Shown here piece after piece: positions 2,113-64,000 of a stretch of DNA of 64,000 nt (position 1 is its first letter; the number at the start of each line of letters is the position of its first letter). The stretch comes from Calliopum simillimum. Its lineage: Eukaryota; Arthropoda; Insecta; Diptera; Lauxaniidae. Under the pieces are notes generated by a model. That model ran no database searches and was not told the DNA's origin. It saw nothing but the letters and a program-made list of their open reading frames with translations. Where the stretch lies: NCBI GenBank assembly GCA_951812925.1, contig OX638371.1, positions 83,275,697 to 83,339,696 of the forward strand, written 5' to 3'. Made by a program: the position numbers and the translations under genes.

Positions 2113-2139
2113 CCTTGGATATTCAGGTGTTCTGTCGTA
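2113..2139 (-). CDS. Exon 46, last exon seen, 27 nt (residues 1038-1046)
   Basis: 27 nt reading YDRTPEYPR with a consensus GTAAGT donor, so the gene continues to the left of the window or into an exon not found. Acceptor TTTTTATTTAAAG. A foldback element ends 20 bp beyond its last base. Confidence 0.72.
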
Positions 2140-5100
2140 CTTTAAATAAAAATAAGAATTATTAATTTATAATTTCGGCTATATATACATACATTAGTGC
2201 GTATCAAGAAACGAGCACCCAATTACACGCCCACATTATGAAACAGGAAAAAAAGACAATTCCGGAAACATAACTTTTTCAACTTTGAAATAAATTTCTA
2301 AAGTTCGTTATTTTCAATCAAACGAATATATTTTGTACTGGACCCCGTCTAACGGGTACTCGATTCATCATTAAAAATAATTTTTGCATCCAAATTGAGT
2401 GCAGGAGCAAACGATGCACATTGGGCAAAATGTAAGACTTGCCGTTCGAAAATAGAAAAATCTTACTTTTTGTCGAATGCGCTTAGTGCGATTCCTCTAA
2501 AAATTTACATACATGTAGGATATTCTATTTAGTACAGTTCAAAACACTTTCCACTTTAGTTCATTTTAACATTTTATTAATTCAAAAGTTCACATTTGAT
2601 GTTCTTTGTTCTTTTTAACGTTTTAATATTTACAATATTTTTATTAGCATAGCAGCACGTCTTTTCGTTAGCTCGCCGCTTACGCAATTCACTTCGTTCG
2701 TTCGTTTTTAAATCTATTCTAGTCCGTTTTTCGTTCAGTCTATTCGTTCTGTTATCTTCGTCTTCGTTAAAGTCAGTGTTGCCGATCAGTTAGTAATTTC
2801 GTCCACCTCTAGTCAAACGTTGGGCCATTATGGGACCTAGGGATTTATTTTAAAGTTAAAGAAAATTATATTCCTCAAATTGACTTCACTTTTTGTTTCA
2901 TAACTTGGGCGTGAAATTGGGCTTGAATCGCGTAACCACAAACATTTCGATACACCCCAACATACTTACATACCTCATCTTCTGATATTGGTGGTAATAG
3001 TGCACACTTTTGCGCCCACTCATTCCAGAATTTTGCCATTCCTGGATTTTCAACACCTTGATGTGCTGTTAGATTAGGTTTCTACAAATAATAATAACGT
3101 GTTGTCATTACACCTTTATTTTTTAAAAGAATTTTTACATGTTATAATAAAAATAATTATTTCAAATATGCCATTTAGCTCTACAATAACGTCATTTTAA
3201 GCATGAATTGTAGGGTAAAGAAGTAAACATTCCCATATACTAACCCTTATTTTTCTCTTTGGTATTGGCAACTTTTTAGACGCCTGAAAAGATGTGGTAC
3301 ATATTTCATTTTATATTTTTTTAAGCTTTTTATTCAGCAGTAATTTATACGTTTGTCTCAAATTATGAAGTGGTCTCAAATTATGAAGTGGTCTCAAATT
3401 TTTTTTATGTCCTTTCTGCTTTAATGCAGTGTAATTTGGGAAAATTAAAAAAAAAATTTTTTCTTGTATATGGAGACCACTTCATAATCCAAGTAGATCA
3501 CAGATCCATTTTAATTGATACTCTATAAACATTAAGACATAAATACCTCTATCGCTTCTCGACGCTTTTGCTCTGCTATCTATTATGTTAATATGAAATA
3601 AATTAAAATTTGTATTTTAACAACAAACAATTAGCAATGAAAATAGAAAAAAAAAACTATTTTCCGAAACCTTTTGTATTAAACGTCTTATTATATTCCC
3701 ATAATAATTTCTATTTATCGGTTTTGTAGCCAAATATGAGAGTTCCGAATCACTGGTTTACTCAAATATAAGTACTTGGTTTTTTCTATCAATAACCTTA
3801 GCTTAAATGAATTGCATTATCATCTGGAAGTACGAAATTGGTATGCCTGAAAACAGACCCTTTTGGAATTTAAAGCAAGGATAACTCACAATGCTGAAGT
3901 CAAGTTTCGTAAATAAGTGGTCCGAAACTCCCATAATCGGCATTAAAAATCTTGAATTGAGAAACAATTTTGTAAATTTTTCCGGGCTTTATAATTAATT
4001 TATAACATTTTATTCTTTTATTATGAAAAACTATAGAAGAAAAATAGATATGACAAAAAAGATTTCACACAATATGTATATAGTATGTACTATATATTAC
4101 AAACTATTCGCCCGAATGCCGAATATCGAATAGTGGCCGAAAATTCGTGACATCTCTAGTGTCTTAGGTCAAAAACCCGAGCTTTATTGAATTCGGAAGA
4201 GGCAGTCATATCTGGTTTGAGTAAATAAGCACCAGAAACTTTTTGTACTTAATTTTGTGGCAAAAATATCATTGATTTCGGAGTGGCGTCATACATCATT
4301 ACCAATGTCATAGTCCCCATTTTGGCTATGGGGGTTATGTCCGCAAATTTTTCGGACATAATCCCAATTAAGATTGAACAAAATTTTTGCAATACTCCAT
4401 TTAAAAAATTCATATAGCGTTGGATGTTATAGACTGATTCGCGGCCGAAGGCCGCCGCGAAGCCGGTGTTGGTTTTTTGGGAGTTTTAAATCCTGAGCTG
4501 CGGCCGCAGGCCGCCCACTTACCCCTACCCTTATGTAAAATTACTGTGTTGGATATATTATAGACTGATCAGCGGCTGAAGGCCAACGCGGAAACGGTAT
4601 TGGAATTTTTGGGAGTTGTGAATCCTGAGCTGCTTCTGTTGTCAATAACAAAATATCGTTATGGGGACTATGTCCGTTTTTTCCTGGGGATTATGTCCGA
4701 AACACTTGCGGACATAATCCCCATATCGTGAATGGGGATTATGTCCACGGCACCGCGCAAGGAGACCTTATTTTGCAAAATCTGATAAGTTCACCACTAA
4801 AGATTTTGTGTGGGGAATTTCTGAGATTTTCTGTAAGTCTTTTGCGCCAAAATACCGAAAGTCTTAGCCTTAGAAAGCATTTCTGAAATGTATTACAAAA
4901 GACTTTCTGCTGTCGTAACCGGAATAGCCCTATTAGTCTTGGTCTCGAAAGACTACCACGTCAAAAAATAGTTTTTTTTAACTAAGTTTTATCTTATTTT
5001 TAAGTACCTGCTCTCTTGTTGCGGCAGCTCTTGCGGATCTCTAGAAAATAAAGTTAAATTTTTTTATTAATAAAACAATTTATTATGCACTTGGTATGGA

Positions 5101-8100: not shown

Positions 8101-11100
8101 AAAAATAGTTGCAAATAAATACATAAATCACGTAAATAATAATAATAATATTATATTGAGAGGCGATTATGGCTTCCTGGTTGCCCATCGAAAAAGGTTT
8201 CCTGGTCAATAAGCATAGGTCCAAGGTACACATAGACAGCATATTTTAAAAACTGTCTACACCCATAACATATATTAATGAAAATACATCTAAAACACAC
8301 TATAAGCTTGAAACAATAACTAAAGTTCCTTCCTGATGTTGTAAAACTGGAATATTTCAAGTAAGTTTCTCAAAAAACTTTTCAAAGTTTACTCCAAAAA
8401 CAAATTTTTACACACAACAAACACTTTTTCCGTCACTTTTTATACACGCATACAGCTTGGCGGTCTGAAGTCTACTAATATCAGTCAGCAGTATGAGTGG
8501 AAAATTCCATAGAAGAACAATATCGTACACGTGCAACTGTTAAGTGGCAACCGACACTCGGACCGAGGTTCACTCGGACCAAGGTACACACATCTCCCCT
8601 ACCTATTGTATGAAATTATGAAAGCGATCTAAGCCATCACAAACAATATGGCCAACCGCATCGAACGAAATACGAGTAGAACTGATAAAACCATTCTCTT
8701 TAACTTCAGCCAAGATCTATCATTAACTGCTCTTCATAATCTGGAATAATGTGGAAAGTGCCCTTGCTAAAAGGTTAGATAAATTATATGTTGATGATGC
8801 TGAATAAAATCTGAAGATTTACGAGTTTTTCTCTTGTGTGGAAGACAAAAAGTCGCCAGAATAATGTCGCTACAGAAAGAAATAACGATATCGTTGGAAT
8901 CATTCTTTGCTCTTCCAAAAAGTTATAGGATATGACAAAGAAGAATGAATTAAGTAGATATTTTGTGCATAAATACCTGTGCTTTAGTTTGTTCAGCTCT
9001 CTGCTCAATCTATAAAATATATTTTATATTAGTATGTACTTTTTTTAATACCAAATCATATATATATATATGGAACATTATTTTACAAACCGTACACTTT
9101 TTTGGATTTCGGATTTGTTTGCTTACAAAGCAATTTTATAATATTCAAATAATTACGAATGGGGATCTCCCCATACTTTGATTTCGTTGTCATTTTTATA
9201 AAACTAAAATTGCTTAGCAACCCGGTGTGGGCACATTTTTGTCTGCAAAAATTGTTTAATATCTTTTGACCCAACAAGAAATCACTTTTTTTAAACTTTG
9301 TGGATGTAATGTTTTTCTGTTGCATAACGCGTGTTTGTGTTTTTTGTTCGAATCAGTTAAAAATAGTTTTTAAAACATAGATTTTAAGTTAAAAAAACAT
9401 TTAATGAAACACTGAAGGAACGAATTTGATCCGATAAGTAGAACTGCAAATATCTAGTTTTGAATATAAAAGGTTCCAGTGAGTACCTAATACATTTATT
9501 TTGAGAACTAATTATTTAAAAAAAATCCCTATATGTGAATTGAATCAAAGAAAAGGTGTAAAAAAACATTGAACTATTCACAGAATTCCAAAATTTTTTT
9601 CACAAAACTCGTACGGTTTGTAAAAAAACGTCCGTTAAAATAAGTGCTGGATAAGACTAAATTAAAAAAAAAAAAATTTTAATTCCACGATTGCCCCCAA
9701 ATCTGAAAAAAAGTGTCAAAAAAGTAAGCTGAGAATTTTAAAATTGTTTAAGGTCATTTGGTAATCTTATATCGCTGTTTTATTTAAAACATCGGTTTGA
9801 TAAGGTTCTTGTTTTATTACGATCTCAAAAACACTCAGAATGAGCATGCTTTAGATAAAATTTTTCGCCTTGAATCAAGGTGTATAGAAAAGATAATCAT
9901 AATTAAGCAAAATGTTAAAAAAAATTTAATAATCGTACAATCGTGAAATTTCGAATTTATTTTTTTTTTTTTTTTTTTGTTTTTTGATTCAGTTATTATA
10001 TTAAGAAACGGTTACCACCACAACTAATGTATACCTCTCAGTTTTTAATTTTCGAATTTATCCAGTTTACTGAGCAGAAAAAAATGCCACAATATTTAAA
10101 TCATTCATTTTATTGGAGCACCTTTATAACTAACTAACATCTCTTTAAACTGGACAAAAGGTACAATAATTTTTTAGTGATAACTTTTATTTCAATAAAG
10201 CAAAAAATTAATTTAGTTTTACTTAAAAAAGAAATTAACTTGCATACATTCATACTTCCATTGAACTAAAAATTTAATTTTATTTTGTTTATAATTACCG
10301 CTCTAGCTTGCTGTTCTCCTGATCCGCTTAAACATGGTTTCTTTAAATATTGAAAATTTGTTATTATATACATGTACATATGTGTTTGGATAGTCACAGT
10401 AGAATTGTCAAGCTTTTTAGATGCAAATTGATTTTTAATAGAGTTTTTTTCGAGCCTCCCAATTTTTGAATGTATTTTTCTCAAAAAAGGCGATAAAATA
10501 CAAAAAAATTACGGAAGCGTCCTCTAGTCTTACTCAGAACTAGGGGTCTGCACAAGACATCTTGAAATAAAGTGTACTTTTTTTTACACCCACATTTTAC
10601 ACTGAACTGATGCATTTGATCCAAAAAATTCAAGATTCAAATCATCGTGTACACTGATTTCATTCTGACACTATTTACATTGTCTTGTTTTATCAGTGTG
10701 AAAAATAAACTTGGTTCAAAAAATTACATCAGTGAACTCTATTTTATGAAAACAAATACTACAGGTCACTGTAAAACGTGCTAGTAGAGAAACCACAATA
10801 AAATGTATGATATGGTAACACTTGCAGAATAGTAGTAGCTTTCATACATTTTTGCGACAGAGAGAGAGAGCGTAAACAAAAAAGAGGCACAAGAAGAGAG
10901 CGATAAACTACTCTTATCACACCATTTGCATTTAGAAGTGTGCAATACTACTACAGTATGCAACTAAAATAACTAAAACAAATCAAACAAGACAAATTAG
11001 CACAGTATTTGTTTATTTTCTTTCAAATTCTAGTTCTGTCAAGACATTTACACACGACACTGAACTAGAGCATTTGATAAATAAAAAGCAGGTACAAAAT

Positions 11101-14100
11101 ATAACGTATATTGAAACGAAATGTCTTGAAACGCAAACAAGACGTCTTGTGCAGACCCCCACTCAGAACTGAAAATAAATGCCAAAAATGAATTCCTCGA
11201 CCCAAAAAGCACCGGATACACATTTGGGTTTTTTGTACAACATCTAAGTCGCTTTTTGAAAAAAAAACTTGCCCCTTGAAAAATTAAGTGGTTAGAAATT
11301 AATTTTAGAAGTATGGTTTCTTGAGCAAAAGTTTTTTTAAATGCTACAAAGAACACCGTGAAGGGTACGCAACTTCACAAGATGCTTTTGTTATGTGACT
11401 AAAATTATAAAAAGTTATGACAATTGACAGATGTCAATACATTAGATTTTATTCACCACTCTCATGGTGAAATATGCATTGGTTTAATTTATTTATTAAA
11501 TTAAAAAACTTTGGAAACATTTTAATACGTATACATTTGAGTATGTTTATCTTTGTGAGTAATTGTACTTACTGTTATTTGAATCCTCGGTATAGGAATC
11601 TTCCTTGATGCCTAAAAGACGAAAAATTGAATATTTATTTAGATGTTTTTCCATTTAAATTTTTTCTGCCTTAGTTCATATAATAATTAAGTTTATTCTT
11701 AACTATATTAAGCCACTAAAGAAGTCAATGAATTTAAGTCCTTTGAATTGCAGAAAAATATTTTTAGGTATTATTGCAATAGTACTTTTCCACAAAGGAT
11801 GCAAGCGTCAGTATAAGATTGCTCCCAAAGAACTAATGTTGATTACAAAGTCTATTTGGATAACTTTATATCGTTGGCCTGATTCTAACATGACGATAGT
11901 CAAAAAAGGCTAAACAAATAAAGTTACTTAGAAAAAAAAAATAACGTTCTAACGAAAGTTACCTTTTATTTTTAATAAACCATGTACATTAAATTCTGAA
12001 GAATTTGAGACTTATTATACAAAAATTTATGGCAAAAAACCTTTTAAAATTGAGATATACGTATCATGCAAAAACTTCAAACGTTAAACCTCCATACAAA
12101 CATTAAAAACTAGTAAAGTGCACAACAACCTAATATTTCTCTGATTGTAGGAATGAAAATATAAAAGTTTCAGCGTCTGGTTTTAACCTTATAAGTATTA
12201 GGTTTGTCCAACTAATTTCCATTTATAAATACCTCTGCGCATTCTTGTTTTCTCCTTTGATCCACCTGTAAAGTTAAAATGAATTGTATGAGCAAAATAT
12301 AAACTGTAATATAAAAGAAAGTAATAAAGAATAGGAGAGAGTGGGATTAGGCAGCTTATGAGAATACATGAACCAGTAGGGATATCTGTTTACTGTCTAG
12401 GACTATTCGGGGGATTATCATGTGTTGTTATCCCTGTCGGCAACCTAACCTCACACTCATTTGTGGTTGTGTCAATCGTTTGTTGTCGCGTATATCAATA
12501 AACAAGGTCATTACCCACCCGACAGTGCTTCAATTGTGGCATTAAGTTATTCCGAAAAAAGTTTCTTATATTCCACTTGTGGCACTGAACTCGATACAAT
12601 TCCTTGTTATCGTAAGTTCATACAAATTTTTTAATTTTCACAAATAATTCTACTTTATTGAAATATAGAGTAACTAAGGGTAATGTGGTTACCTTTTTAT
12701 TTTTTTTTTTTTTGTCATTTTCTACCAAAGTAATGGTAGTAGGTTATCTTGGTCAATTTATTTGTATTAGTTAATCTATTGTTTTTAGTATTTGATAATT
12801 TCTATACTAAAATATTAACATTTTCAAGCGTGAGACCAGTTAAATTGAAAGTACCTAAAAATAGCTGAAAAAGAAAAGTGTCGGGTAGTGTGGATCACTC
12901 CGTCCATTTCCTAAAGTAGTACCGTTATTCGCAATTTTTGTTGACTAAGTAGCTTCATAGGCAAATTAAAGAATATTTTTTACTAAGAAAAACCAAATTC
13001 ATACTAACAAATGAATAAGTGATAAGGGTTATCGAATCATACGTAAAACAGTACTCCACATTACACAAACTTGGGTGTTCCACACATGTAATCAGCTTTT
13101 TAAGGTGTAGTAGTAATCAAAGTTGAACTTGCTTATGCATTTTTTCATTGAATAATAGTTCCACAATTGCATTAGATTTATTTGAATTTTAGAAAACAGA
13201 GTTCTGAGGAAGTTATTTTGTTATTCACAGAGTACTACAAATAAGTCAACTTGACTTCACAGCATATGCTAAGAAATTGCACACGAATAATTAGCACAAT
13301 TGAAAAGCCGAAGTGCGTAGAAAATATATTTTTCGCGTTTTAATGTACACAAATAACCAGAATTGTTGTACAGTCTTTAATATGAGAAATAAAAGTGAGC
13401 ACCACATTACCCGCATAGTCCACATAACCCTAAATTACCCTATCATGTCACCTTAAAACTATTTCCAATTAGCTGATAGGATACATGAACCACAACTTAA
13501 ATTAGCTTGTTGCAAATGTCTTCGTTCAGTCTATGAAAAGTTTAAAGAGTATTTTTTTGGGCAGTACTACAGCTTAACGATCAACTGCAGGAGAGAATTT
13601 CAATGGAATGCCACGTTTTTCTTCTGCTGATTTATTTTCGAGAATATTTTGTACGAAATATAGAAATAAGGTTCATCAACTTCTCTTCCATCAGATCTAA
13701 GGCTAGTCTATACTAATACTTCGATCCAGCTTCATAATTAATTTTATATAATTTCACTGCTTTTAAACATAATTTTTAAGAGAACTTACCAATTCTATCA
13801 GAAAATTAACAAAACGTTTATACTTGAAATACAAATCTAGGTGACAATGAATGCGTATCTATTACTTTGATCAAGACAATTACTATTTTTTACAAATAAT
13901 GCTTTACATAGTGATAAAAGGAACATACAAGTACGGATATATTTTCTTTATAGGATGGCGGGATCATATTATTTATATTTAAACTAAAATTATTTTTTAA
14001 ATACACCAAAAGTTTGATTATCGAATTATAGTTTTTAAATACCTGTCTTGATGTTGTTGTCCTCCTTGCGCATCTCTGTAAAATAAAATAAAATAAATTA

Positions 14101-17100
14101 TTTTTTGTTAAATCACTTTCATACATAAATGATGTTCCACATATATGTTTTCCATCTTGCAATAAGAATTGGAAAAATTGTTAGATTGTAGCTAACTGAT
14201 GCAATTGAGTGTGATATAACTTTAAATATGCCTTTTAAGCTACGCAGGCAAACAAATCTGAGGATTTACCAACTTGAGTGTATAAGGATTTACTCAAAAA
14301 ACTAAGGCCGCAGAAAAATATATTTTTTTTGTCGCCCTGTCTTCGGCTTCTATTTTCCAAATTTTATCGAATACTCGCACATACATATACGGCTTAAGAG
14401 ACATATGTCCGAATTACATAGAAGAACATAAAGTAACTTTCTCCGAAGAAGTAGCGGTTGTGAAAAATCACTTTGTTTGCTACTTAATTGTAATTTAAAA
14501 TTCTACTTCAAATCTTTTGTAAAATGTTCAGGGCTTATCAAAACAGTAAGCACAAGTGGCCTAGCCCTTATTTAGTTAAAAAAGCAAAAGAAAATAACGT
14601 CTGCTCGTGTTGACACATGCCAAAGTTGCTGTGATATTCTTAAATAAATATTCTAAGACCAATAAAATGTAGCCTATGTATCTCTTATTTTTAGCTCTCT
14701 TGTAAATTTTTTTTTTTTTTATTTGGGACCCAAATAAACGCCTAAGAATGAGGGTTCCCATCAAGAAAAAATTCACAGAAATAAATGCTGTTAAAATTTT
14801 ACTAAGGATGATAAGTGTGGAACATCACATAAAGTAGATAAACTTTAACTAAGGGCATTCCTTAAAACGTATAATAGCCGGAGAGCCAGCGCTTAAAAAC
14901 GACTTTGCGTTTCTAAAAGCTGGATTTGTTACAGTTGGTTATAGTAGTTGTGTACACACATAAACTGTCGGTCAGTCAAGCGTACTGTAGAACAGACGGC
15001 TGATATATGGTCTCAAACATGTCATGATTTCGATGGTGATCAAATTAATTTCTAAAGGCTGAAAATTGTTATACAGATTGTATAATGCATTAAAAGAACA
15101 ATTATGTCAGTCAATCAGTTAAACGTTAGAACAAGGCTGGTCAGCAGCCCCGTGGAAGGCAAAACGTTTTTTTTACTCAGGAGGGAGGCATCTTACGGAA
15201 AAAGTGTACACGGTATAAAATGCTTAGAATCGTTCAAGGAATACGTGTAAATTTTTTATTTTTTTTTTTGTAAAATTTTTAACGTCACCCAGTGTGCCAG
15301 ACGGTTCACTTTCCGCTTTTTTATCCGTTACGGATCCGTAACTGATCCGTTTGCGGGAGAAATTCCAAAAAAAAAAAACGATTCGCTTTTTTCGGGTAAA
15401 AAAGCGGAGATATGAACCGTCTGGCACACTGGGCATTTTTAATAAATTTTTAGAAAAAAAAAAAAAAAATTTTTAAAAAATTCACACTTGTTCATTGGAT
15501 GATTCTAAGCATTTTATGCCATGTTCACTTTTTTCGTAAGATGCCTCCCTCGTGAGTAAAAAAGGCGTTTTGCCCCCCACGGGGCTGCTGACCAGCCTTG
15601 TCCTAACGTTTAACTGAGTGACTGACATAATTGTTTTTTATATGCAGCGTTTTTAAGCGCTGGCTCTTAGACTATAAATGCTTCAAAAACCTCGTAAACT
15701 CGTGATAGTTTTCAAAATCAATGCGTACTTTGACAGTTTTACAAATTAACGAGTTTTTCGAGGCTTTTACACGTTTTAAGGAATACCCTAACTGTTGCAT
15801 AATTACCTGCGCATTAGTTTGTTGTATTTTTGCTTTCATCTATGAGTATGAAAAACATTTACATTATTATTTTACATACAAATGCTTATGAAAATAAATT
15901 AAAAAACAAATAATAACCAAAGAGCATTTATTTTCGAGTGGGTATTATTTGAAGTAGCCCGTTCGCGGATTCGTTTACCCGATACAATAAATCTTTGGTA
16001 CTTATTAAGTACATATGTATGTACATGCAATGTATGTATATTATACATATATTCCCTTAATTAAAAATCAAATTTTGTATTGAGTGTAATTACCTCTTGC
16101 GCTCTTTTTATTCCTGCTGCTTCTCGCTATAAATAAATAAGCAATTATTATGTTATTATTACTTAATTGATACTATAAATCAAGGAAAAAGACATAAGAA
16201 CCTAAGAAAGTGAAAAGCAATGAGGTTTTTAATTAAAAAAAAAAAAAAGTTCATAAAAAATTTTTCCCACAAACATAAGTATAATTTTTCGTGCACACAA
16301 GCCAATCGGTGGAAGCACTTTTCCAAATGTTGCCTCCAAAGTTTTGTCATTTTTCACAATGTTTATCAACTGTTTTGAGTGATTGTCAAATAATGTGAGA
16401 TCCAAAGTACAGCTAAGTAGCTCTCTGACGACCGAATTTTCATGAGAGATGTATCATGATGATCTTAGTGTTTTTATACAGTTATATTGTCGTTTTTTTG
16501 GAAGAAAATTTTTGGGAAATTTTATGTACCACAAATACATTTAAGAGCTCTTGAGTCAGTCGAACAAGCAGCTGCTTCGACAGAAAATTATAACGAACTG
16601 GAAAACATTGAACTGGATTTAACGGATATTACGCCTACTCTTGCTCTTTCAGCTTGAGTCGACCTGGTTCAACAATTTGACCTGAGCTGTCTTTAGGATA
16701 AATATCATCAATGACATGAATGTCCGAAGCAGAAACGCCTATTTTGGTTAAGTCAGCAGGAGTGATATCCTACTACGGTTCATTATAATTGCTCAACTGA
16801 CTCAAGATCTCTTGATTGTACTTATAGCGCATCAAAGTCTACTTCGTTTTCATCCAATGATTCATTTCAACGTCAGAATTAGCCTCAAATAAGGATAAAA
16901 TCTGATCATTTTCAATCACATCCTTTGGATGAAGACATTTTCTGTAAAAATATTTAGAAAAAATGCTATAATGTCTAGAAAACTTTATATTTTTTTCTTA
17001 AATCCATACAAAAAGAAAAACTTTCTTTTGGGGATCAATGTCGAATATATGTATACATTATTTCTTTTTATCTGCAGACATTAACTAGAAAAGGCGGCAA

Positions 17101-50100: not shown

Positions 50101-53100
50101 GGTCTTGTCCTTGCACATTGTGTATAACTCCTATAACTATATAACTCCTTAAGGGTACATTTTAGACCCCTCTTCGGGTGCAATTTTTTGTAAACCTAGG
50201 CCTCTCCTATCACCTCCCAGAATCTTCGTAACCTTATGCAAATGTAACAACATATTTTTAATTGAAGAATTCCAAAAATACTTATTAAAAGGTATTTTTA
50301 GTATAACTTTTGAAAGGGATCTGATAGGATTTTTCTAAAAACAGATTCTGAATCAGCAAAAAAAAAAACAAATTTTTTCATATCAACCGATTTTAGCGAC
50401 ACTTTTATACGTAAATAATTTTCTTCCGTATCACCGTGTACAGTAGAATGAAAAAGTAGGAAATTTCACGATTTTCAATAAAACTCAGAAAGACGATGTT
50501 GTCAAAGTGAGTTAAGTTTCAATACATTTAAAATTTTTCACAAGTTATTTTGAGGTTGAATTAAATGAGATCAAAAAATGGTACTTTCAAAAACAAAACA
50601 TACAATAAACCAAAACCATTTTGGTCATTTTCGATGTGTTTATCGTTGCCGAATCCGAATCCAGTCTATCCTTCATCATTTAAATAAGTTATGAAATGGT
50701 CTTGCATGATTATTCCTTAAAAAGCTATGACCACTTTTAAATGATACATGAAAGTTAAAAATCGTAAGTGGATTCTGATATGATTTGTCACTCTTGGGTG
50801 TCATTTTCAAATAGCTATAACTTTTTAAGGAGAAATCACACAAGACCAAATAATACTAAGCCACGCATTTGTAGAAAAGAGTATTTTATGCGTCCTCTAT
50901 ATAAATTCAAAAATTGTGTTTTTAAACTTTTAGGCAAGAATATCTCAAAAACCATACGTGACAGAGCAAACCCGGCACTGGATTTGGACTATTTTGATTT
51001 TTTGGGTTCAACCTCATTCAAACGCACTGTGATCTACGTTTCAATAAATAGAGTTGAAACCAGTCAGTAGCCAATTTTATTTAAGTCTTGAAATAATTAA
51101 TTAATTAATATAAAACTAATGGGGTACACAAACGACAGCTTTAGTTAGGATAATATACGTAATAATGCAATTTCAGCTCACTTTTTTGACACCACCTCTT
51201 AGATTTTAAGGGTAATCGTGGAGTTTTCAGAAATCGTTTGTTTTTTTTTTTCATCAGTCTGATATCGTTGGGTTAAAACTACAACTAGACATCTACATTT
51301 TTCATGTTTTGAGAAAAAAGCGTTTTAAGTTTTTTGAAATTCGTTTTTTGTATGGGATTTTGCAGTTTTCTGATTTCTATTCTTTATATTAAATTGAATG
51401 GGGACTATATTTCACAAAATTGACTAAACTGAGGCATAGAGCCGTTTTTTCTTATAATTAACTCAAAACATCAATATATTTACAATATATGTCTAGTTGT
51501 AGTTTCAACCCGACGATATATAATCAACACTTTTAATTTTTTTTTTTTTTCCAAAAATCAGATACTTAAATACATATATGGGATATGGAATGTCACGAAA
51601 TGCCAAAAAACACTTGTCCCACGAGTATATTGCACGACTACAGCAAAATTTCGACTATCCCTCCATGACATTGTTTAAAAATTAACATTTTGAATAATGT
51701 ACATACATACATCCCGGAATCAAAAAGAAGTCGTAATAAAGTTTAATCGCATGAAAACTACCGAAAATCTCCCCTCCGTCATCATCCTCTTTCCAATCAA
51801 GCCTTTTCCACGCTCAATTTAGCCAAATACAATATTCCACTGATGTTCTGCGTATAGACATATTTAAGTTCCATAAGAACAGATGCATTTTCGTAGAGCA
51901 AGGCCAATTCTGACCCTCTGATGCTCGCTGGTGGCTTTATCACTTTTGTCCCACGCATTTTTCATATTCCGTAGGCAATTCTAAATATCCGCGGTTATTC
52001 TGCCGCGTCAGACATGGAGGGCTTCCGCGCCGGGTTTTTTCAAATCCATCAACACAGAAACCAAACCCAACAGAGGAACTTTCTCCAAATTTTCCCATAC
52101 ACTTGCTGCGGTCGAAACAAAATGACAAAAGTACAGGAAAAAAGTCAAAGTCCCCTCCATCAGGGGGATGTCAAAATATTGGTGGGAATTTCTTCGGTGC
52201 ATCATTCTTGTGGAATGAAGAGTCTGTCAAACTTAGTCGATTGTGCCCAGTGCTTAACTATACATTTCATGAATGGACCATTTTAACAACTTTTCAAATT
52301 CAAATTTTCATATCCCGAAATTACGGTGTTACGTAACATTCACCCATATGTTTGGATGGCAAGTAGAAAAATTAGTTTTTAAAATGTTTCTTACATCGCA
52401 TTCATCTTCATCTTCGTCCTCATCTTCATCTTCGTCTTCATCATCAGCTTCGTCGTCACACTGGCTCTATATTGTAACAAATAAATTATTAGATTAAAAA
52501 ATTTTGCTTCAAAACAACCTTGATTAGAGTTTTGATTACGAATTGGGGAATGATATGATTTTACTGAGATAAAAACTTCTATTTTCAAAAACCAAGCATT
52601 TGCTCAAATTTTCTTGTTTAAATTCTTCTGATGATGAAAGAATGCACGAAATTAAAAAGAAAATTACAGTTCTTTCGAAAAAAATCAATGTCAAAATTCT
52701 TTATAAATAATTTCGACGTCTTGTATAATTTTAAAGCCATTTCATTTCAAGAGACGTAATCAGGGTTGTTCTCGCAACAAAGTCAGAATAGATCTGTGGC
52801 AGAAAAGAAAAACTGCTTAAGTCGACTTAAGCAAAAATAGTTTTAAGATCAATTTTCTATTAGTTCTGGGTAAAATCACTCTTTTGTTTTTGGACATTAT
52901 CAAAAACTAAAGTACAATTGCTTCCAGAACTAATCGAAAATGTAGCCCAAACATATTTACCTTAAGTCGACTTAAGCAATTTTTCCTTTCTTTATAAAAA
53001 AAAGATACACTTTTTACCTGCGCTACAGATTCAGCACGAGCTTCTGTAACTTGAGCCAAAACGTCTTCGTAATTAGCCGATTGAGAAGCTAGATTTAAAC

Positions 53101-56100
53101 GTGCCAACATCTCTTTTAGCGATTCAGTGAGTAACTACAGAATAAATACAAAATAATTTAAGTTAAAACATTTGTGTAATTCATAGAAAAATGAAAAAAA
53201 AAAACTTTTAATTCAGGGTAATTTAAAGTAAAAATTAAAAAAACTTTTTTTTGTGACCTCAGGCTCATCTTAACACTAGTACTAGAGTGTGTAAACTACT
53301 CCAATCTTCTCATAAATTGTACTGCATAAGTTAGTAGTGCTTTTACTATACTGTGTGAGCAGGAATTGGTAGAACACCGGAAAATGTAAGATTCCTGGGA
53401 CTATTCTGTACAACTTTTCTTATTTCCACTTTTCGAAATTCGAACATATTACTTACTAGCAATAATAACACAGGTTTACAAAAAAAAAAAAATGTCATGG
53501 CGTTTTGACCAGACTATTGTTTCCTAGAGACTTTGACATCCTGAATTCGAATCCCGAGTCCGTTATTTTTTAGAACGTCTGAGAAAAAAGATTTCAAGGT
53601 CATATGGAGGTCAAAATGGGGTTCATGTGTCGTTTAGTGATAAATTCGCTAAAATTCTGAAACTAATTTTTTATCATTGAGTTCTTAGGTCTTAAAAAAA
53701 ATTTGTGATCAAAAAGGGTATCTTGGACTTAGTTTCGGAGATATAGCCATCGGAAGATCAGAATATATATCTGCTATGAAAACCGCTATAAGTTGGGAAC
53801 CCCTAGATGGATTTGAAAAATATTGGTGTCGTAAGAAACGTATTTTGTTGTTGTTATTGTTGTTGTTGTTTTTGTTGTTGCTGTTGCTGGTGTTGTTGAT
53901 TTATTTGTTGTTGTAATTGAAAAATTTCACAAAATTTCAGAAAAGCTCATATCTCGTAAATTATGAATCCAAATGAAAATATGCACACAACATTTTTATA
54001 GGCTGTCAAAATACCTTTCATATGACATCAATATTTTACAAATCCATCCAAGGGTTCTTAACTTATAGCGGTTTTCATAGAAGATATATCCGGATCTTTC
54101 GATGGCTATATCTCCGAAACTGGGTGTGAAGTACCATTTTTGATCACATATTCTTTTAAATGGCTAAGGACTCAATGATAAAAAAAAAATTAGTTTCAGA
54201 ATTTTAGCGAATTTATCACTAAACGACACATGACCTCCATATGACCTTGAAATTTTTTTTCTCAGACAAAAAAACGGACCCGGGATTCGGATTCAGAACG
54301 TCAAAGTCCCTAGGAAACTCATAGTCTGTTCAAAACGCCATGACATTTTTTTTTTTTTTTTTTGTAAACCTGTGTAATCGGTTGTGTGAACGAGGTATTA
54401 ATTTCAACTTATCATATTCGACAATATCAAGCCATCAAGTAAACTTTTCGTGAAAACAGACCCCAATTTTATTCATTTTTAACAAATTATAAAGCAATTC
54501 AGATTATGACATTACTTTTGTCTCTTTATTTAATTACTATAATAGCTCCGTTGGTTTTGCGAATTTCGAAAAAGAACATATGGGTTTTGAGATATTCAAG
54601 CCTAAAAGATCAAAAACACGATTTGCAAGGTTTCATAGAGGGCGTACAAGATCATTTTATATCTAACTTTTGTTCTAAGCAATGCATTTACAGTAGACCC
54701 CGCTTAATTGACTTGATGAAACCGGGACCCGCTTAATTGATACGATTGATCAATTAACCCTTTCGACTTGGCTGGGACAATTTATCCCAATTTTATATAC
54801 TAAAAAAATCTCGTATATACTACCAAATTTAATAATTTTATTATCTTTAAAAATAATTGGGCTGAAGACCATAACTGTTATTGCCTAGCTTTAAGTTTAT
54901 CTATATAATTCATTACATAAATAAATTATCTATAAATAAATAAATATTTAATAAATATTTAATATATATTGTCTCAGCCGGGTCGAAAGGGTTAAAAGAA
55001 TTCCGGATCATTGAGCGAGTTGTTCATTTAAACATAGAAAAAATTAGCATTTGGCGACTTTATGTAGTTTTAATTTAATGGTTTTTTATATGTTCAAAGC
55101 ATTAAGAATTTCTTTAAGTCACAAACTCCAGAAGCAGATAACGAATACGAAAATATGTATGTATATTGTACATTAGAGGTGTTTTAAGAATGTATGGAGA
55201 TCCTTAGTAACAACATTTTGATACTTGACACCCCTCAATTTTGTGAGGTTGGAAAAAAAAAATGAGTTTGCAAAAAAAAATTTGTGGGTGGGGTGAGGGT
55301 AAAGGTTGGCGCATCGAGGTCAAAGGTGAGAGAACAAGAGAAAAAAATTACATACAGCAATACTAATGTTTAGGGGTCCCCTCTAGAGGGGTCGAATGTA
55401 TGACCAACCCACATTATTTTCCATCCTCCAACATTTTTACCAAGCATACTTACCCCCTATCTCTAACCCCTAAGGGGGCACCCATACAAAATTGACATTT
55501 TTAGGAAATCGACCCCTACCACTCCCTGGGTGCCCCTAGAAGAATCAAATGTAAAACCGGCCCCTAATATTTTTTCCTCTACAAAACTTCGCACCATACT
55601 AACCCTCTATCTCTAGCTCTTAAGAGGACCCCCATACAAAATAGATGTCATAGACATGAAAAATATGGAAAGGAAATCGTCAAATAGGCCCATAACTGCC
55701 CAGAAGTCACTCCTAGAGGTGTCAAATATAAGACTGACCCCCAGTAGCCCCCCTCCAAAGTTTTTTCTCAGCATACCTACCCCCTATTTCTAATCATTAA
55801 GGGGGCTCCGATACAATGTTACTGTTTTTATAAAAAATGCCCCCACTGCCCTAAATGGCCCACGGGTACCCGTAGAAGGGTCAAATGTATGACCGACCCC
55901 ATTATTTTTTTACGACCTATATTTTTTTTCACATTATTGCCCCCTATTTTCAACCCTGAAAGGGGCTGCCATACAATTTTTTTTTTTATAAATTTTCTTA
56001 GAGATAATAGGGGTCGGTCACACATTTGACCCTTCTAGGGGTACCCATGGTCCAGTTAGGGCAGTGGGGGCAGTTTTAAAAAAAAAAAACGTAACTTTGT

Positions 56101-59100
56101 ATGGGAGCCCCCTTAAGGATTGGAAAAAGGGGGTAGGTAAGCTGTGAAACTTTGGAGGGGAGCTAATGGGGGTCGGTCATGTATTTGACTCCTCTAGGAG
56201 AGACTTCTGGGCAATTATGGGCCTATTTGACGATTTTCTTTTCATATTTTTTATGTCTATGACGTCAATTTTGTATGGAGGCCCCCTTAAGAGCTAGAGA
56301 TAGAGGGAAAGTATGGTGCGAAAAAATGTTGTAGAGGAAAAAATATTAGGGGCCGATCATACATTTGACCCTTCTAGGGGCACCCTGGGAGTGGTGGAGG
56401 TCGAATTCCTAAAATCTCAATTTTGTATGGAAGCACCCTAAGGGGTTAGAGGTAAGGGGTAGGTATGTGTGGTAAAAATGTTGGGGGAGAAAAAATAATG
56501 TGGGTCGGTCATACATTTGAACCCTCTAGAGGTGGCCCCTTTTGTAGGACTGTAAGTAAATTGTTTCTCCTTTTCTCTTATCTTTGACCTCGATGCGCCA
56601 ACCCTTACCCTCACCCCACCCCCGATTTTTTTTTTTCAAACTCCTTTTTTTTTTCCAACCTCACAAAATTGAGGGGTGTCAAGTATCAAAATCCGAAATT
56701 CGTGCACTAAAACACCCCTATTGTACATTAAAAAGTGCATTAGGTACATAAAGGGAACTTCAATTCACCTTAAAATAAAATAAAGAAAATTAATATAAAA
56801 TACGGGTATGTGCGTAGTAGACTTATAGCTGGGCATATTAATTTGGAAAAACTAGGTGTAATGGAAATGCAAATGGGATAGCTTAGGATATGTTTACTAC
56901 GAGTTCATCAGTCTGTCGTGCTGAGTCGGATGCCTAAGCACATGACCGGCCTGAAGAGGATGCGAAAATCTGTTTTTTTTGCAAATATCTCGCTAACGGT
57001 TACTTCTATAGAAAAATGTTGGGACAATTTTGTAATTGTGTGCTTATAAAAAGTAATTCAGGGTCAAATTTTTAAATTTTTTTCTAATTTTCAGTGGCAT
57101 TAAAAATAAAAAAACAACAGACGTGATTTTGACTTTTTAAAACCTTTAAAGCCATCACCTCTTCTGGACATGGTATGTAAGCATAATCCACTTTTGTCGG
57201 CGTTAAAAATATCAGCTTGATCAATACCCTTTAATAATCCGGGAAGAACTAAGTTATTGAAATCATTTGACCCTTTTGCGTTTTCTGAGGATTTCTCTGC
57301 ATGGACTTTACGAAAGACGACATATTAACGGTTTTGCCTTTGCCATAGCCAGTTCGGAGTAGGATTAAATCTTTATTGAGCTGTATTGAAAATTGTTCAG
57401 ATTTTTCCATCAGTATAATTTTTGTTACTTTTAATATTGTTGATCTTTTAAAAGGGGTATTTTATTTTTCATTTGGAAATCATTTTCTTCTTATCAATTA
57501 ACCGGGCAAAAAGCAAAAGACGTGTTTGCAGCAAAAGGCGCGTTTGCTCAACTGAACAAAATATGGTCTTCATTCGTTATATCCACCAAAACGAGAGTGC
57601 GCAGTTTTGATTCGAATGTGAAATGGGTTTTGTTACATGGGTGCGAAACGTGGCTTGTTACTGAACAACTAACAAAACAAGCTGCAAGTATTCGTCAACA
57701 AATGCTTAAGGCGAATACTAAAGGTTTGGTAGCCTCGCACTATATCGAATGCCGAGCTACATCAAAAATGCAATCAGAGGGCTATAGCAATCGAGGTCAA
57801 GCTGCGCAAATGGAGATGGATTGGTCACACTCTCCGGAAACTACACAGCGAAGTTTGTCGCCAGGCTCTTGAGTGGAATCCACAAGATAGTAGAGCACGT
57901 GGTAGACCCAAAACCAACTGGAAGAGGTCGCTGGAAAAGGAAACCCAAGAATCGGGAAAGTCGTGGCAAGAAATTAAAGTCAACGCAAGGGATCGTGACA
58001 AATGGAGAGATTTCATATTGGCCCTATGCTCCTCCTAGGAGTTAAAGGAGAATACAATTAACCGGGGAAACCAATTAAGCGGGAATCAATTAACAGGGGA
58101 TTTGGGTGCCTTTTTCAATGAGACAGTTTCACTAGGCTTTTTTTAGTTCAATTATTCGAGGAAGTCAATTAAAAGGGGGTCAATTAAGCGAGGTCTACTG
58201 TAGTAGTAAAGAGCAGAACAATTTCGTGCGCCCTCCATATAACCTCAAAAACCGTGATTTTAAACTTTTTGTATATAATTTGAGTTTTTGGCACCTTGTT
58301 GGTTTATGTTCTCATTTTCGAAAACTTCGCAAATATTTTTTTAGAATTATTTATACATATTTTCTATATCAATACTTACACTTGCGTCCAAATCTGATTC
58401 TTGAAGACTATACTCAGCATCACACTGAAAATAAAAAGCAAATATTTTTTCAAAATAATGAGGGGATTCCTGAAAACGTGTAAAAGTCTCGAAAACTTCG
58501 TAAACTCGTAAATGTTGCCAAAATCATTACGAAATTTGGCAGTTTTACGATTTCAGAAATCCCCTCAATAATAAAATAAAAACGGTCGCTAAAAACCAAC
58601 AACCTACATTGTTTCAAAGAAATTTTTTTATCACCGTTTGAAAAAGCGGGGACATTTCCATTTTGTATGTAATTCAAACCGATAATGAGCCAAATATCTG
58701 GACGGCTATCATCGATCGCTCTGAAACTTTATTCGATTTGAATGGAAACATATCGTCGGCTTGACAAGAAAAAGAGCTAAGTCAATTTTATGGCAATTCT
58801 AAAGCATCAACTTTTAACTTTTCATAAAAACAGAACCCAGATTCATTTATTTTTAGCCCTTTCGATCATTTGTAGCCATATGGCTACACAACTTTGAGCG
58901 ACATAATGCATTAGATTATGCCAAGTGTGTCAGCATATCAAAATTACTGAGCCAAGCACAGTCAACGTAGAATTTTGGCTCGTCTACAACAATCACAATA
59001 TTTTGCAAAGTTCTCGGAATTACAACACCCATTAAAAATTGTTTGTGTGTTTTTTTTTTTTTTTTTGGCTCGACGACAACAAACACAATCGGAATGAAAG

Positions 59101-62100
59101 CAATCTTCAAGAGCTCGGCATTTCGATAATTTACACCAAATCGAATTTGTGTTTCAGCAAATCGAATAGGAATCATTATCAAATTTTATTTACTGAAATA
59201 GAAATCCGATTTCATCCTTTTTGTAGCAATGCAGAGCTCTTGAAGATTGCTTTCATTCCGATTCCGAAGTGAATCGGATTTCAGAGCATGCCTGAATATT
59301 TCCCATTTCTCGGAATTAAAATTGTTTTTGCTTGTTGTTGCAAAATTGTGTGTGTTGTAGACGAGCCAAAAAAATAATAAAAACAATTTTTTATGTGAGT
59401 TGTAATTCTGAAAAATTTTAAAAATATTGCTGTAGGCTCACTCACTTTAGTTTTGCGCTGACTGCCTTGCATTATGCATTAACTGTTTTTTTGTGTAATA
59501 AAGTACTTTGACAGGAAATAGGGTGTATCATTTTTGAAAGTAATTTTTGAAAATCATTTTTCAAGTTATACTTTCTTCTGTGTGCGAAACTTGCTGTTTT
59601 CAGCCATATAAGAAAAAATATAATTTCGCGAAACAGTACTTCATCACATGACTCATCAAAAGTTGTGTTTTTTTCCCCAGGTTGCAAAATTTTATATAAC
59701 TTGCAGCTTCACACTTGTCGACTTAAGATTATGATGGTCAATGTTCATTGCTTACGCTTACCTCATCGTAATCTATTGCTCCTCCTTCAGCTCGCTGAAT
59801 AAGTTCTGTTCCGTTTTCGAATTGCTGAGTGTATTGTTCTCCTCCTTCAGCTCGCTGAATAATTTCTGTTCCGCTTTCGAATTGCTGAACGTATTGTCCT
59901 CCTCCTTCAGCTCTGTTAAAGGAGGATTCTTTTATTTCACTCACAGCTTTATGTATCATTATAAAACGTCCTATATTATCTACTTCTTTCCGTGCATCTT
60001 GCACTGGATTTACTAAGCGGCTTTTAACCTGGAAAAATAAAAATAAAAACGAAATATCCGTAAATAGTATGTAATTATTTTATTAAGATTGATATAATAG
60101 TGCAGGCAAATCAGGTAAAAAAGGGTTTAATATCTAATTTTGTTGAACAAGCACCGATTTTGATCCGTCATGGCTCATTTTGTTGATAATTGAAAAAGAA
60201 AATAAAAAAACCAACACTTTAAATTTATGCAGTTTTTGGAAAGAGGTCGAAAAACGGTTTTTTAAATAAAAAATAGAAACACTTTTAAAAAACGAAATAA
60301 CGACCAAATAAAAAACGAAATAACGCCCAAAAATATGAAATAACGCCCAAAATCAAAAACGAAATAGCGCCCAAATTATTTTCATATAAATTTGGGCGAT
60401 AATCATTTTGGAAATAACGCCAAAAATTTATTTGTATGAAAATAATTTGGGCGTTATTTCGTTTTTCGTTTTTGGGCGTTATTTCGTTTTTTAAAAATAA
60501 AACGAAATAACACCCAAAAAAAGCGAAATAAAGCCCAAATTTTTGGGCGTTATTTCCAAATTGATTATCGCCCAAATGTATATGAAAATAATTTGGGCGT
60601 TATTTCGTTTTTGTTTTTGGGCGTTATTTCATAGTTTTTGGGCGTTATTTCGTTTTTTATTTTGGGCGTTATTACGTCATATTATTTTTTGGGCGTTATT
60701 TCTTTTTTTTTTTTGGGCGTTATTTCCTAACGCCTACAAAATCTTTACTAGTTGCTACAAAACATCATGTCTTTAAGACCTTTTTTACGTTTAATTTCTT
60801 AGGTAGCTCATTTCAGAAATCACTCGGGTGATTTCTATTGATCCGAATGTCATAAGGGCGAAAAATATCACTTTTTTTGCGAGTTTTGTACTCTAACTTG
60901 CCGAAAATGCATTCAAAAGGACTGATGTGTTGGTGAAAGTTGTAGATATTGACGAGACAAAAAAACACATAAATCGATGAGTTGAAAAACCGTCTCAAGG
61001 TGCAAAATTCAAATATCCGTTTCTCGAAAACTAGAGCTAACTTGAACAATCCAAGCCAAACGGTCACTTATTTTGCCTATATTTTTACCCCGCAGCGTCA
61101 AAACCGTGTAAACTTATGACAAAAAAATTTTGTTTTACAGTGTAATTCATCACACCTCTGAAACTGTTTGGGCCAGATTACTGAGATTCGGAGCAAATGC
61201 GAACAGCAACAGAACAATTAACATCCATTGAAATAAAACAAAGCGCAATCACTCCCCTTAAAAACTAAACTGGTCGTATTTCCAAAACTGTTCAACGCAG
61301 ACGTATGAAATTTGGTTCATAGACAAAAGGCATCAGGACAAATAATAAAAAGGGTTAATGTTCACGAAAGTGCCAATTTTTAAAAACTTTCGAAGTTAAT
61401 CTTAGTTATCCTTTTGCTTTGGTGCAAATAATATAAAACTTAAGTTTTTATTGATTTCGCTAGGAACATGAATTCGTTCGACTTAATGTACTAAAAACTT
61501 AGTAATGCTGGAAGTATTGCAATTAGCTTTCAATCATTAGTTCAACAAAATTTTATCTCTTTTAAGAATACTTAATCTTTAAGATATCCTTTAAATGTTC
61601 AATAAATAAAAATAATACCAACCCTCATAGGATGAAATGGCGATTTAATTGGAAATTCTAGAACATTTAAGCCTTCGGGAATACTTTTATCGTCGAATTC
61701 ATTCATTAATATTGGCGTTTCATTAGCGATTATGTGCTCAAATTCTTCAGATGTTGTTTCGGTGTCATGCGAAAGAGTTACTTGATTTGCAAAAAATATC
61801 GTATCGATTTGTTCCTCTTCAATGGGAAGATTAAGATGCCTGGAAAACTGTTAATTAAGAAATAATTTATTTTCATAAGCACGACTTTTTTATGAATTTT
61901 TTTATTTTATTTTACTTACACTATTGTACTTGTATAATTGACCAAACATATCAGTTTCTGATGATGGCTTTAGAAAAAGAAATAAGAAAAATTTAAATTA
62001 AAAAAAATAAATTCTGTAAACAGTGAAGATCATTCTATTTAAAGACTATATAAAAACTATGCTTCACAAATGACTCGTTCAACATTTTGCTATAAAGTCT

Positions 62101-63500: not shown

Positions 63501-64000
63501 CTATGTATGTAAAATATAAATGTTGTAAAACACAAGTAGATTTTGAAGTGTGATTTGCAACTGCGTCATACCTTTACTTTTCACTTATCTTTACTACTCA
63601 AAAGAATAGAGTTGAGGGTAAATACGTTGATCACGTTTGATGTCTTATATTCATACGATGTTCTTTTACGTAAATTTTTAAATATTTTGTTTTAGTTAAA
63701 ATGCTAACAAATAGCATAGAGAAAACATGAGAAAGAAATAATTTAAATTTATTTTGCGAAAATTTTGTATTTTTGTAAAGTTAAAAAAAACAAATCATAT
63801 CGAAACGAAATTTCAAATAGAACGTAAGGAGCAAAGATTTATTTATGAAGGAACAAAAATTTAAAGTATTTTTTTAAAAAAGTTTATGTATAGATTGTGA
63901 TAACAATTTTTATTGATTTACTGTCGGCATATTAAATTTTTTTAAAAAAAGAAGAAACAATAGCCTTCTACGCTTAGGAGCGATTACTACAAAATTATTT
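63501..64000. other. Region upstream of exon 1
   Basis: AT-rich. A 22-nt segment at 63572-63593 with GTATGA donor and GAGTAG acceptor could be a 5' UTR exon but is non-coding in phase 0 (begins TAA). No clear promoter element could be identified. Confidence 0.3.

Follow-up and report, generated by a model that had tools for sequence, protein, structure and literature searches.

The window analyzed here (the whole stretch of 64,000 nt from the lauxaniid fly Calliopum simillimum) carries on its minus strand a series of 48 blocks, each preceded by AG and followed by GT, which were picked by eye after the whole of that strand had been read and which we treat as proposed exons. They lie between positions 2113 and 63500 and join into 3,144 nt, or 1,048 codons, with no stop; each has a length divisible by three (48/48), and every proposed junction falls in phase 0. 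The original prediction had counted 46 such exons with 1,046 stop-free codons, sixteen of the exons being of 33 nt or less, a description that the present set bears out and slightly extends, with 17 of its 48 exons in that size range. The acceptors (n = 48) are TAG in 27 cases, CAG in 18, and AAG in three, the most frequent donors are GTAAGT (18/48) and GTAAGA (7/48), and the introns range in size from 59 to 5,245 nt.

Eight of the 48 exons measure 30 nt or less and 28 measure 51 nt or less, with a median of 48 nt. By coding length, exons of up to 33 nt contribute 507 of the 3,144 nt (16%) and those of up to 51 nt contribute 996 (32%). The earlier characterization of the gene as built almost wholly from mini- and microexons thus stands when exons are counted and is overstated when coding length is measured, because the eight exons of at least 99 nt carry 1,386 nt, or 44% of the total. 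The proposed exons are listed below in transcript order, where weak marks a score below 15 bits in the leave-one-out test and blocks A and B are the two copies of a five-exon series.

Exon 1: 63285..63500 (-), 216 nt; ATG directly 3' of an acceptor-like site; weak donor; weak by model
Exon 2: 61920..61967 (-), 48 nt; weak by model
Exon 3: 61623..61847 (-), 225 nt; codon score below 0 though the phase-0 frame is top; weak by model
Exon 4: 59762..60028 (-), 267 nt; 20-residue tandem units RAEGG..QF.NGTE.IQ
Exon 5: 58380..58424 (-), 45 nt
Exon 6: 53018..53134 (-), 117 nt
Exon 7: 52395..52466 (-), 72 nt; acidic tract
Exon 8: 49265..49288 (-), 24 nt
Exon 9: 48415..48462 (-), 48 nt; repeat unit xxDFCRRxGLLSD
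Exon 10: 47840..47878 (-), 39 nt; acidic
Exon 11: 44242..44403 (-), 162 nt; an acceptor 2 nt downstream, in another phase, outscores
Exon 12: 43986..44051 (-), 66 nt; copy of exon 14 including part of the flank
Exon 13: 41702..41800 (-), 99 nt; acidic; copy of exon 15 including part of the flank
Exon 14: 40606..40662 (-), 57 nt
Exon 15: 39956..39994 (-), 39 nt; acidic
Exon 16: 38254..38445 (-), 192 nt; second half a predicted long helix
Exon 17: 38141..38194 (-), 54 nt
Exon 18: 37428..37484 (-), 57 nt
Exon 19: 37156..37206 (-), 51 nt
Exon 20: 34743..34793 (-), 51 nt
Exon 21: 33021..33068 (-), 48 nt; weak by model
Exon 22: 32845..32871 (-), 27 nt
Exon 23: 32657..32683 (-), 27 nt
Exon 24: 32437..32490 (-), 54 nt
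Exon 25: 32000..32062 (-), 63 nt
Exon 26: 31874..31927 (-), 54 nt
Exon 27: 29079..29153 (-), 75 nt
Exon 28: 28294..28377 (-), 84 nt
Exon 29: 24950..24982 (-), 33 nt
Exon 30: 24571..24594 (-), 24 nt
Exon 31: 22055..22087 (-), 33 nt
Exon 32: 21844..21873 (-), 30 nt
Exon 33: 20358..20378 (-), 21 nt; shortest of all
Exon 34: 20044..20100 (-), 57 nt
Exon 35: 17119..17187 (-), 69 nt
Exon 36: 16094..16126 (-), 33 nt
Exon 37: 15807..15839 (-), 33 nt; block A unit 1; partner exon 42
Exon 38: 14043..14075 (-), 33 nt; block A unit 2; partner exon 43; another frame outscores
Exon 39: 12233..12265 (-), 33 nt; block A unit 3; partner exon 44
Exon 40: 11573..11611 (-), 39 nt; block A unit 4, ASRKIPIPRIQIT; partner exon 45; weak by model
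Exon 41: 10299..10340 (-), 42 nt; block A unit 5; weak partner exon 46
Exon 42: 8977..9009 (-), 33 nt; block B unit 1
Exon 43: 5008..5040 (-), 33 nt; block B unit 2
Exon 44: 3547..3579 (-), 33 nt; block B unit 3
Exon 45: 3245..3283 (-), 39 nt; block B unit 4, ASKKLPIPKRKIR; weak by model; other frames slightly better
Exon 46: 2974..3081 (-), 108 nt; block B unit 5 plus an extension
Exon 47: 2467..2496 (-), 30 nt; weak by model; another frame outscores
Exon 48: 2113..2139 (-), 27 nt; followed by the strong donor GTAAGT

Exon 1 may open the coding sequence or lie inside it, since its ATG adjoins an acceptor-like site and an in-frame TAG lies just upstream. The original prediction held that end exons were missing on both sides, and these were sought within the window: an initial exon in positions 63501-64000 (best score 4.7, for a three-codon ATG piece at 63922-63930) and a terminal phase-0 exon in positions 1-2112 (best score 6.0, the plus-strand control reaching 21.3). 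Because a strong donor follows exon 48 and no convincing terminal exon lies leftward of it, the 3' end of the gene is probably outside the window, and the 5' end is perhaps outside it as well. When exon 48 is read through unspliced, a stop follows after three more codons, and in that unspliced form it could be the last exon. The three-codon piece upstream of exon 1, ATGCCGACA at 63922-63930 (-), is followed by GT and resembles the start of exon 1, ATGCCGACT, a likeness that may be due to chance.

Tests of the exon set against chance

Picking by eye favors open frames, and therefore signals other than openness were tested. Strict pairs of splice sites enclosing 18-300 nt were counted in nine classes of phase and length, and the two strands were compared. 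On the minus strand, the open class in phase 0 with a length divisible by three (hereafter phase 0/3n) stood at 36/186, with 28 of the 36 being proposed exons and the other eight classes at 5-19, versus 8/193 on the plus strand, where the other classes stood at 3-12. When looser donors were allowed, the phase 0/3n class stood at 52/437 on the minus strand (36 proposed exons; other classes 14-34) and at 18/450 on the plus strand (other classes 10-24).

A codon-position model trained on the 14 exons of at least 60 nt was applied to the 34 shorter exons, which together scored +186 bits in the proposed frame (30/34 positive), −81 and −15 bits in the other two frames, and −249 bits antisense; length-matched random stop-free intron scored −131 ± 23 bits, the best of 500 such sets reaching −65. 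In the leave-one-out test, the phase-0 frame was both top and positive in 43/48 exons, the exceptions being exons 2, 3, 38, 45, and 47. A combined splice-plus-codon model was trained on all 48 exons, so that its results are partly circular: at 21 bits or more it returned 40 minus-strand clusters, of which 37 were phase 0/3n and all 37 proposed exons, versus two clusters on the plus strand, none of them phase 0/3n, and at 15 bits or more it returned 57 clusters on the minus strand, 43 of them phase 0/3n (42 proposed exons), versus eight on the plus strand, again with none in that class. A less circular model combined the codons of six long exons with a generic splice consensus set by hand; it imposed no rule on phase, and its consensus weights were chosen once the exons were already known. 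On the minus strand, phase 0/3n candidates made up 42 of its best 50, a figure that may include the six training exons, and among these 35 of the 42 held-out exons were matched to the base; on the plus strand, phase 0/3n accounted for 4/30 candidates. Fly splice matrices gave four open phase 0/3n pairs on the minus strand and one on the plus strand at a threshold of 10, and they were dropped as almost powerless in AT-rich DNA, the pattern, codon, and held-out tests being used instead.

Seven of the 48 exons (1, 2, 3, 21, 40, 45, and 47) are weak in the leave-one-out test, at under 15 bits. A reading outside phase 0 outscores the proposed one in exons 38 and 47, through another frame, and in exon 11, through an acceptor 2 nt downstream, so phase 0 for every exon is less than proven at the level of the single exon. 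Exons 40 and 45 back each other as duplicates, both being 39 nt long with 7/13 residues identical, and the similarity of exons 38 and 43 (5/11 residues) lends support to the phase-0 reading of exon 38. Phase 0 throughout is the best reading of the exon set, and a less certain one exon by exon. The same scoring, applied to further internal phase 0/3n exons at 15 bits or more, returned one non-overlapping candidate (33324-33563), which lies within a FLYWCH zinc finger ORF, and another candidate at 14599-14628 scored 13.8 bits. With these tests in hand, we are close to certain that the gene and its phase-0 architecture on the minus strand are real.

Exon duplication and splicing signals

Comparison of the exons with one another indicates that the gene has lengthened in part because single exons, and blocks of them, were duplicated in tandem. 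One unit is present three times, as exons 9, 12, and 14, and a second one twice, as exons 13 and 15; in 12/14 and 13/15 the duplication is seen at the DNA level and takes in part of the introns. Exon 4 contains an internal 60-nt direct repeat that is 92% identical. Exons 37-41 and 42-46 appear to be a five-exon series that occurs twice, with lengths of 33, 33, 33, and 39 nt in both copies. The best four-exon match, of exons 37-40 to exons 42-45, scores 100, a value reached by none of 2,000 permutations of exons 29-48 (best 82), and among 2,000 such permutations the three-exon match was reached by one and the five-exon match by none. The single exon pairs have diverged, with 4/11, 5/11, 2/11, 7/13, and 3/14 residues identical. 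Because the exons are symmetric and in phase 0, they could be duplicated, retained, or lost singly or in runs without a frame shift. A scan of the introns for decayed copies of 41 of the 48 exons (those of 9-60 residues) found none; one match above its null, on the opposite strand and without splice sites, was attributed to chance.

The GC content of the exon flanks is 16.2% upstream and 24.3% downstream, versus 32.4% for the whole strand, and the upstream flanks are rich in ATTTA, TTTAT, and TTATT. Purines make up 65.5% of the exons of up to 33 nt versus 55-57% in the three longer classes, an excess that may be a by-product of the basic, helix-like peptide composition of the short exons. In Drosophila, neuronal microexons of the eMIC program are described as alternative exons with UGC near the acceptor (PMC8797185). 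The exons described here are likewise fly microexons, but TGC is not enriched in the 77 nt upstream of the 48 exons (28 occurrences versus 36.4 ± 6.1 expected), so that the eMIC code finds no support in the exon set as a whole. Downstream of the exons TGC is mildly raised (48, z 2.1), and exons 13 and 15 alone have TGC adjoining the acceptor. Intron motifs of Rbfox, PTB, CELF, QKI, and Mbnl showed no enrichment over z 1.1. Inclusion of the microexons would probably depend on a high purine content in the exons and on strongly AT-rich surroundings, not on the eMIC code.

Predicted product, relatives, and interpretation

The whole join has a GRAVY of −0.87, a pI of 4.7, and a cysteine content of 3%, and the pI by segment, from exons 1-6 through to exons 36-48, runs 4.4, 4.1, 8.5, 9.8, and 10.8. 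From this composition, and the GRAVY in particular, we infer a mostly disordered product whose mixed N-terminal part would give way to an acidic central part and then to a stretch rich in Ser and Pro, ending in a basic tail that is prone to helix formation, is rich in Arg, Ala, Gln, and Lys, and would consist largely of 11-residue exons. Neither a signal peptide nor a membrane segment was found by hydropathy in the visible 1,048 residues, in which the N terminus is not hydrophobic and the top mean over any 19 residues is 1.03; the absence of a signal peptide applies to exon 1, as 5' exons may lie outside the window. Modelled alone, exon 16 forms a helix over residues 26-63 (mean pLDDT 76), and exon 4 forms a helix and four strands at low confidence (pLDDT 56), which hints at beta structure. 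Glycine turns recur in exon 4 roughly every 10 residues within the 20-residue units, and its model matches generic meanders only, and weakly. We had presumed a likeness between this repeat and the G-box (Tcp10_C) of centriolar proteins, for which we found no support, no CPAP or Sas-4 chain being among the best 50 rows of either structure comparison.

The original prediction had proposed a profile search of the join against related fly genomes. No relative emerged from Pfam, from PDB, or from a large set of proteins, which were the collections covered here. Pfam returned no family at E ≤ 1 for the whole join or at E ≤ 10 for six single exons, PDB sequences gave no match at E ≤ 1, and the protein set held no relative of the whole join, residues 535-800, or residues 1-306. 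The whole-join search of that set scored only the 7,985 candidates with the most common words, and acidic words perhaps swamped it; residues 307-534 and 801-1048 were covered by this search alone, and the set perhaps lacks spliced fly proteins, so its empty results say little on flies. A PDB match of exon 4 alone to yeast RSC8 (E 1.3) was taken as chance, and of eight pattern matches of exon 4 to viral contigs none was confirmed. Rfam searches at gathering scores and tRNA searches gave no relative, and the literature matches listed included no account of a comparable dipteran gene.

Several known gene groups offer comparisons of architecture. Vertebrate SCPP genes, of which the caseins are members, have short exons and charged secreted products; the gene described here resembles them in its short exons and its charged, low-complexity protein, and differs in that SCPP products are secreted, vertebrate, and encoded by far fewer exons; the likeness drawn here is one of architecture. 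The PEVK regions of titin and of insect titin-like proteins are runs of short symmetric exons that encode disordered, charged, alternatively spliced springs. Pfam showed no Ig or Fn3 domain in the 1,048 residues visible of this incomplete gene. All introns of SCPP genes are in phase 0 (PMC7807025), as is every intron proposed here between the 48 exons. PMC9168663 describes the bicycle genes of aphids and their relatives as having internal exons nearly all in phase 2, a secretion signal, and salivary expression, and it describes an aphid megacycle gene with 118 exons, a length of about 100 kb, and a product of 2,092 amino acids. Many small internal exons, one common phase (as in bicycle genes), a long gene, and tandem duplication are shared with these, but the phase is 0 here versus 2 in bicycle genes, and no signal peptide is seen. 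The bicycle phase test failed, all 48 proposed exons being in phase 0, and the published bicycle classifier returned a linear predictor of −220 on this incomplete gene, which is negative, and of −12 when every internal exon was set to phase 2. Schistosome MEGs, as described in PMC4015677, encode small products, mostly with a signal peptide, in which microexons make up as much as 75% of the coding sequence; their symmetric exons can be skipped without a frame shift, as could those here (48/48). Exons of up to 33 nt make up 16% of coding here, and the protein has at least about 1,000 residues. The original prediction had set the gene apart from bicycle genes and MEGs, and the phase (for bicycle genes) and the lack of a visible signal peptide (for MEGs) agree with that separation. 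We claim no membership in the bicycle, MEG, or SCPP groups for the gene, and its structure would work like that of such modular genes.

The best explanation, which we hold tentatively, is an intact protein-coding gene under selection, with about 48 exons or more spanning at least 61 kb, that encodes a long, mostly disordered intracellular scaffold of symmetric exon modules. Symmetric exons would be kept or skipped differently across tissues, and the length and charge of the protein might be tuned by the choice of those included. The product might most likely serve the cytoskeleton, muscle, or sperm tail as a structural scaffold or linker, a guess made because, in a survey of Drosophila (PMC8042270), genes with microexons showed enrichment for cytoskeletal, supramolecular-fibre, and neural functions and because of the composition of the protein; that association favors a neural function as much as a cytoskeletal one. 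As no homologue was found in the databases searched, the proposed function rests on composition and statistical association.

Other explanations differ in how well they accommodate these results. That AT-rich DNA yields stop-free AG...GT stretches from which the exons were chosen by eye is barely credible: random stop-free phase-0 pairs do exist (8/193 strict pairs on the plus strand) and the initial splice-matrix test was almost powerless, but the recovery of held-out exons and the opposite-strand control refute it to our satisfaction, and the collinear duplication of an exon block also speaks against it. Two or more neighboring genes strung together, with exons 1-3 especially belonging perhaps to another transcript, would account for the weak splice and codon scores of exons 1-3 and for a composition of exons 1-6 that is unlike the remainder, and a selection rule of a donor and no stop would miss internal last exons by construction. 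We consider this distinctly unlikely, as a common phase-0 convention is rarely shared between two unrelated genes and as the 12 best minus-strand candidates of the phase-0 terminal-exon scan were only proposed exons extended into their introns and the FLYWCH ORF.

Rather unlikely is a secreted, fast-evolving protein of a MEG-like or bicycle/megacycle-like kind, or an SCPP-like secreted matrix protein, with a signal-peptide exon upstream of exon 1; such an exon, if present, would change the product from intracellular to secreted. A similar style of architecture, with numerous very small symmetric exons and tandem duplication inside the gene, is found in the megacycle gene (PMC9168663) and MEGs (PMC4015677) and favors this explanation, against which stand the visible N terminus without a hydrophobic segment, the phase 2 of bicycle genes versus phase 0 throughout, the classifier values on the incomplete gene even with phase 2 imposed, and a tail that is highly charged and basic in a protein with 3% cysteine. 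An explanation compatible with the scaffold gene, and one we regard as quite possible, is that the locus is the orthologue of an already annotated gene of Drosophila or another fly, whose architecture and function may then be on record. Intact fly genes mostly have orthologues, and the three empty protein-set searches weigh little for flies; the empty Pfam (E ≤ 1 for the join, E ≤ 10 for six exons) and PDB (E ≤ 1) searches count against it, and we recognized no Drosophila protein in the join.

If the scaffold gene is expressed as predicted, it would be a natural test of how very short exons, by the dozen, are recognized amid AT-rich, repeat-filled introns and of exon duplication as a route to a longer protein, and its tiny-exon architecture would seem independent of secreted effectors. 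For scale, a survey of Drosophila that set the limit for microexons at 30 nt counted 985 reliable ones across its samples (PMC8042270); this one locus has eight proposed exons within that limit and 17 that do not exceed 33 nt, each of them in phase 0. It is doubtful, if conceivable from the sequence, that the locus is a gene of the fly lineage without detectable relatives, still growing by phase-0 exon duplication and yielding combinatorial isoforms of a charge-graded scaffold, which would make it an independent, non-secreted counterpart in Diptera of the MEGs and megacycle genes.

Repeats and other features of the window

The following further features were observed.

440-1280: tandem duplication of about 420 nt, with parts 98-99% and 87% identical
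24034-24159, 36506-37109, and 60306-60716: foldback-like repeats rich in AACGCCCAAA / TTTGGGCGTT, in three introns
33264-33602 (-): FLYWCH zinc finger ORF (E 5e-13), flanked by inverted repeats
39135-39348: tandem array of 18-nt units, ACCCCCATGTGATATGGC-like
41860-43833, 18152-19951, 29267-29807, 49361-50439, and others: intronic inverted repeats
57444-57869 (+): DUF6451 ORF (E 4e-9)

The FLYWCH ORF is probably part of a mobile element, and the DUF6451 ORF presumably resembles a retrotransposon remnant. Pfam searches of two other transposon-like ORFs gave a below-cutoff match to Srw (E 0.01) for 18718-19182 and none for 51914-52333. Oligomers such as TACATACATA, of which the window has eight copies versus 0.16 expected, would fit higher flies. 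The long intronic inverted repeats have arms of up to 364 nt, some of them 98-99% complementary. Of 46 pairs, the 25 longest supplied the 42 arms that were entered into the overlap count; these arms occupy 10.4% of the intron sequence and touch no exon base. The sequences AACGCCCAAA / TTTGGGCGTT have 35 matches on both strands together, versus 0.2 expected.
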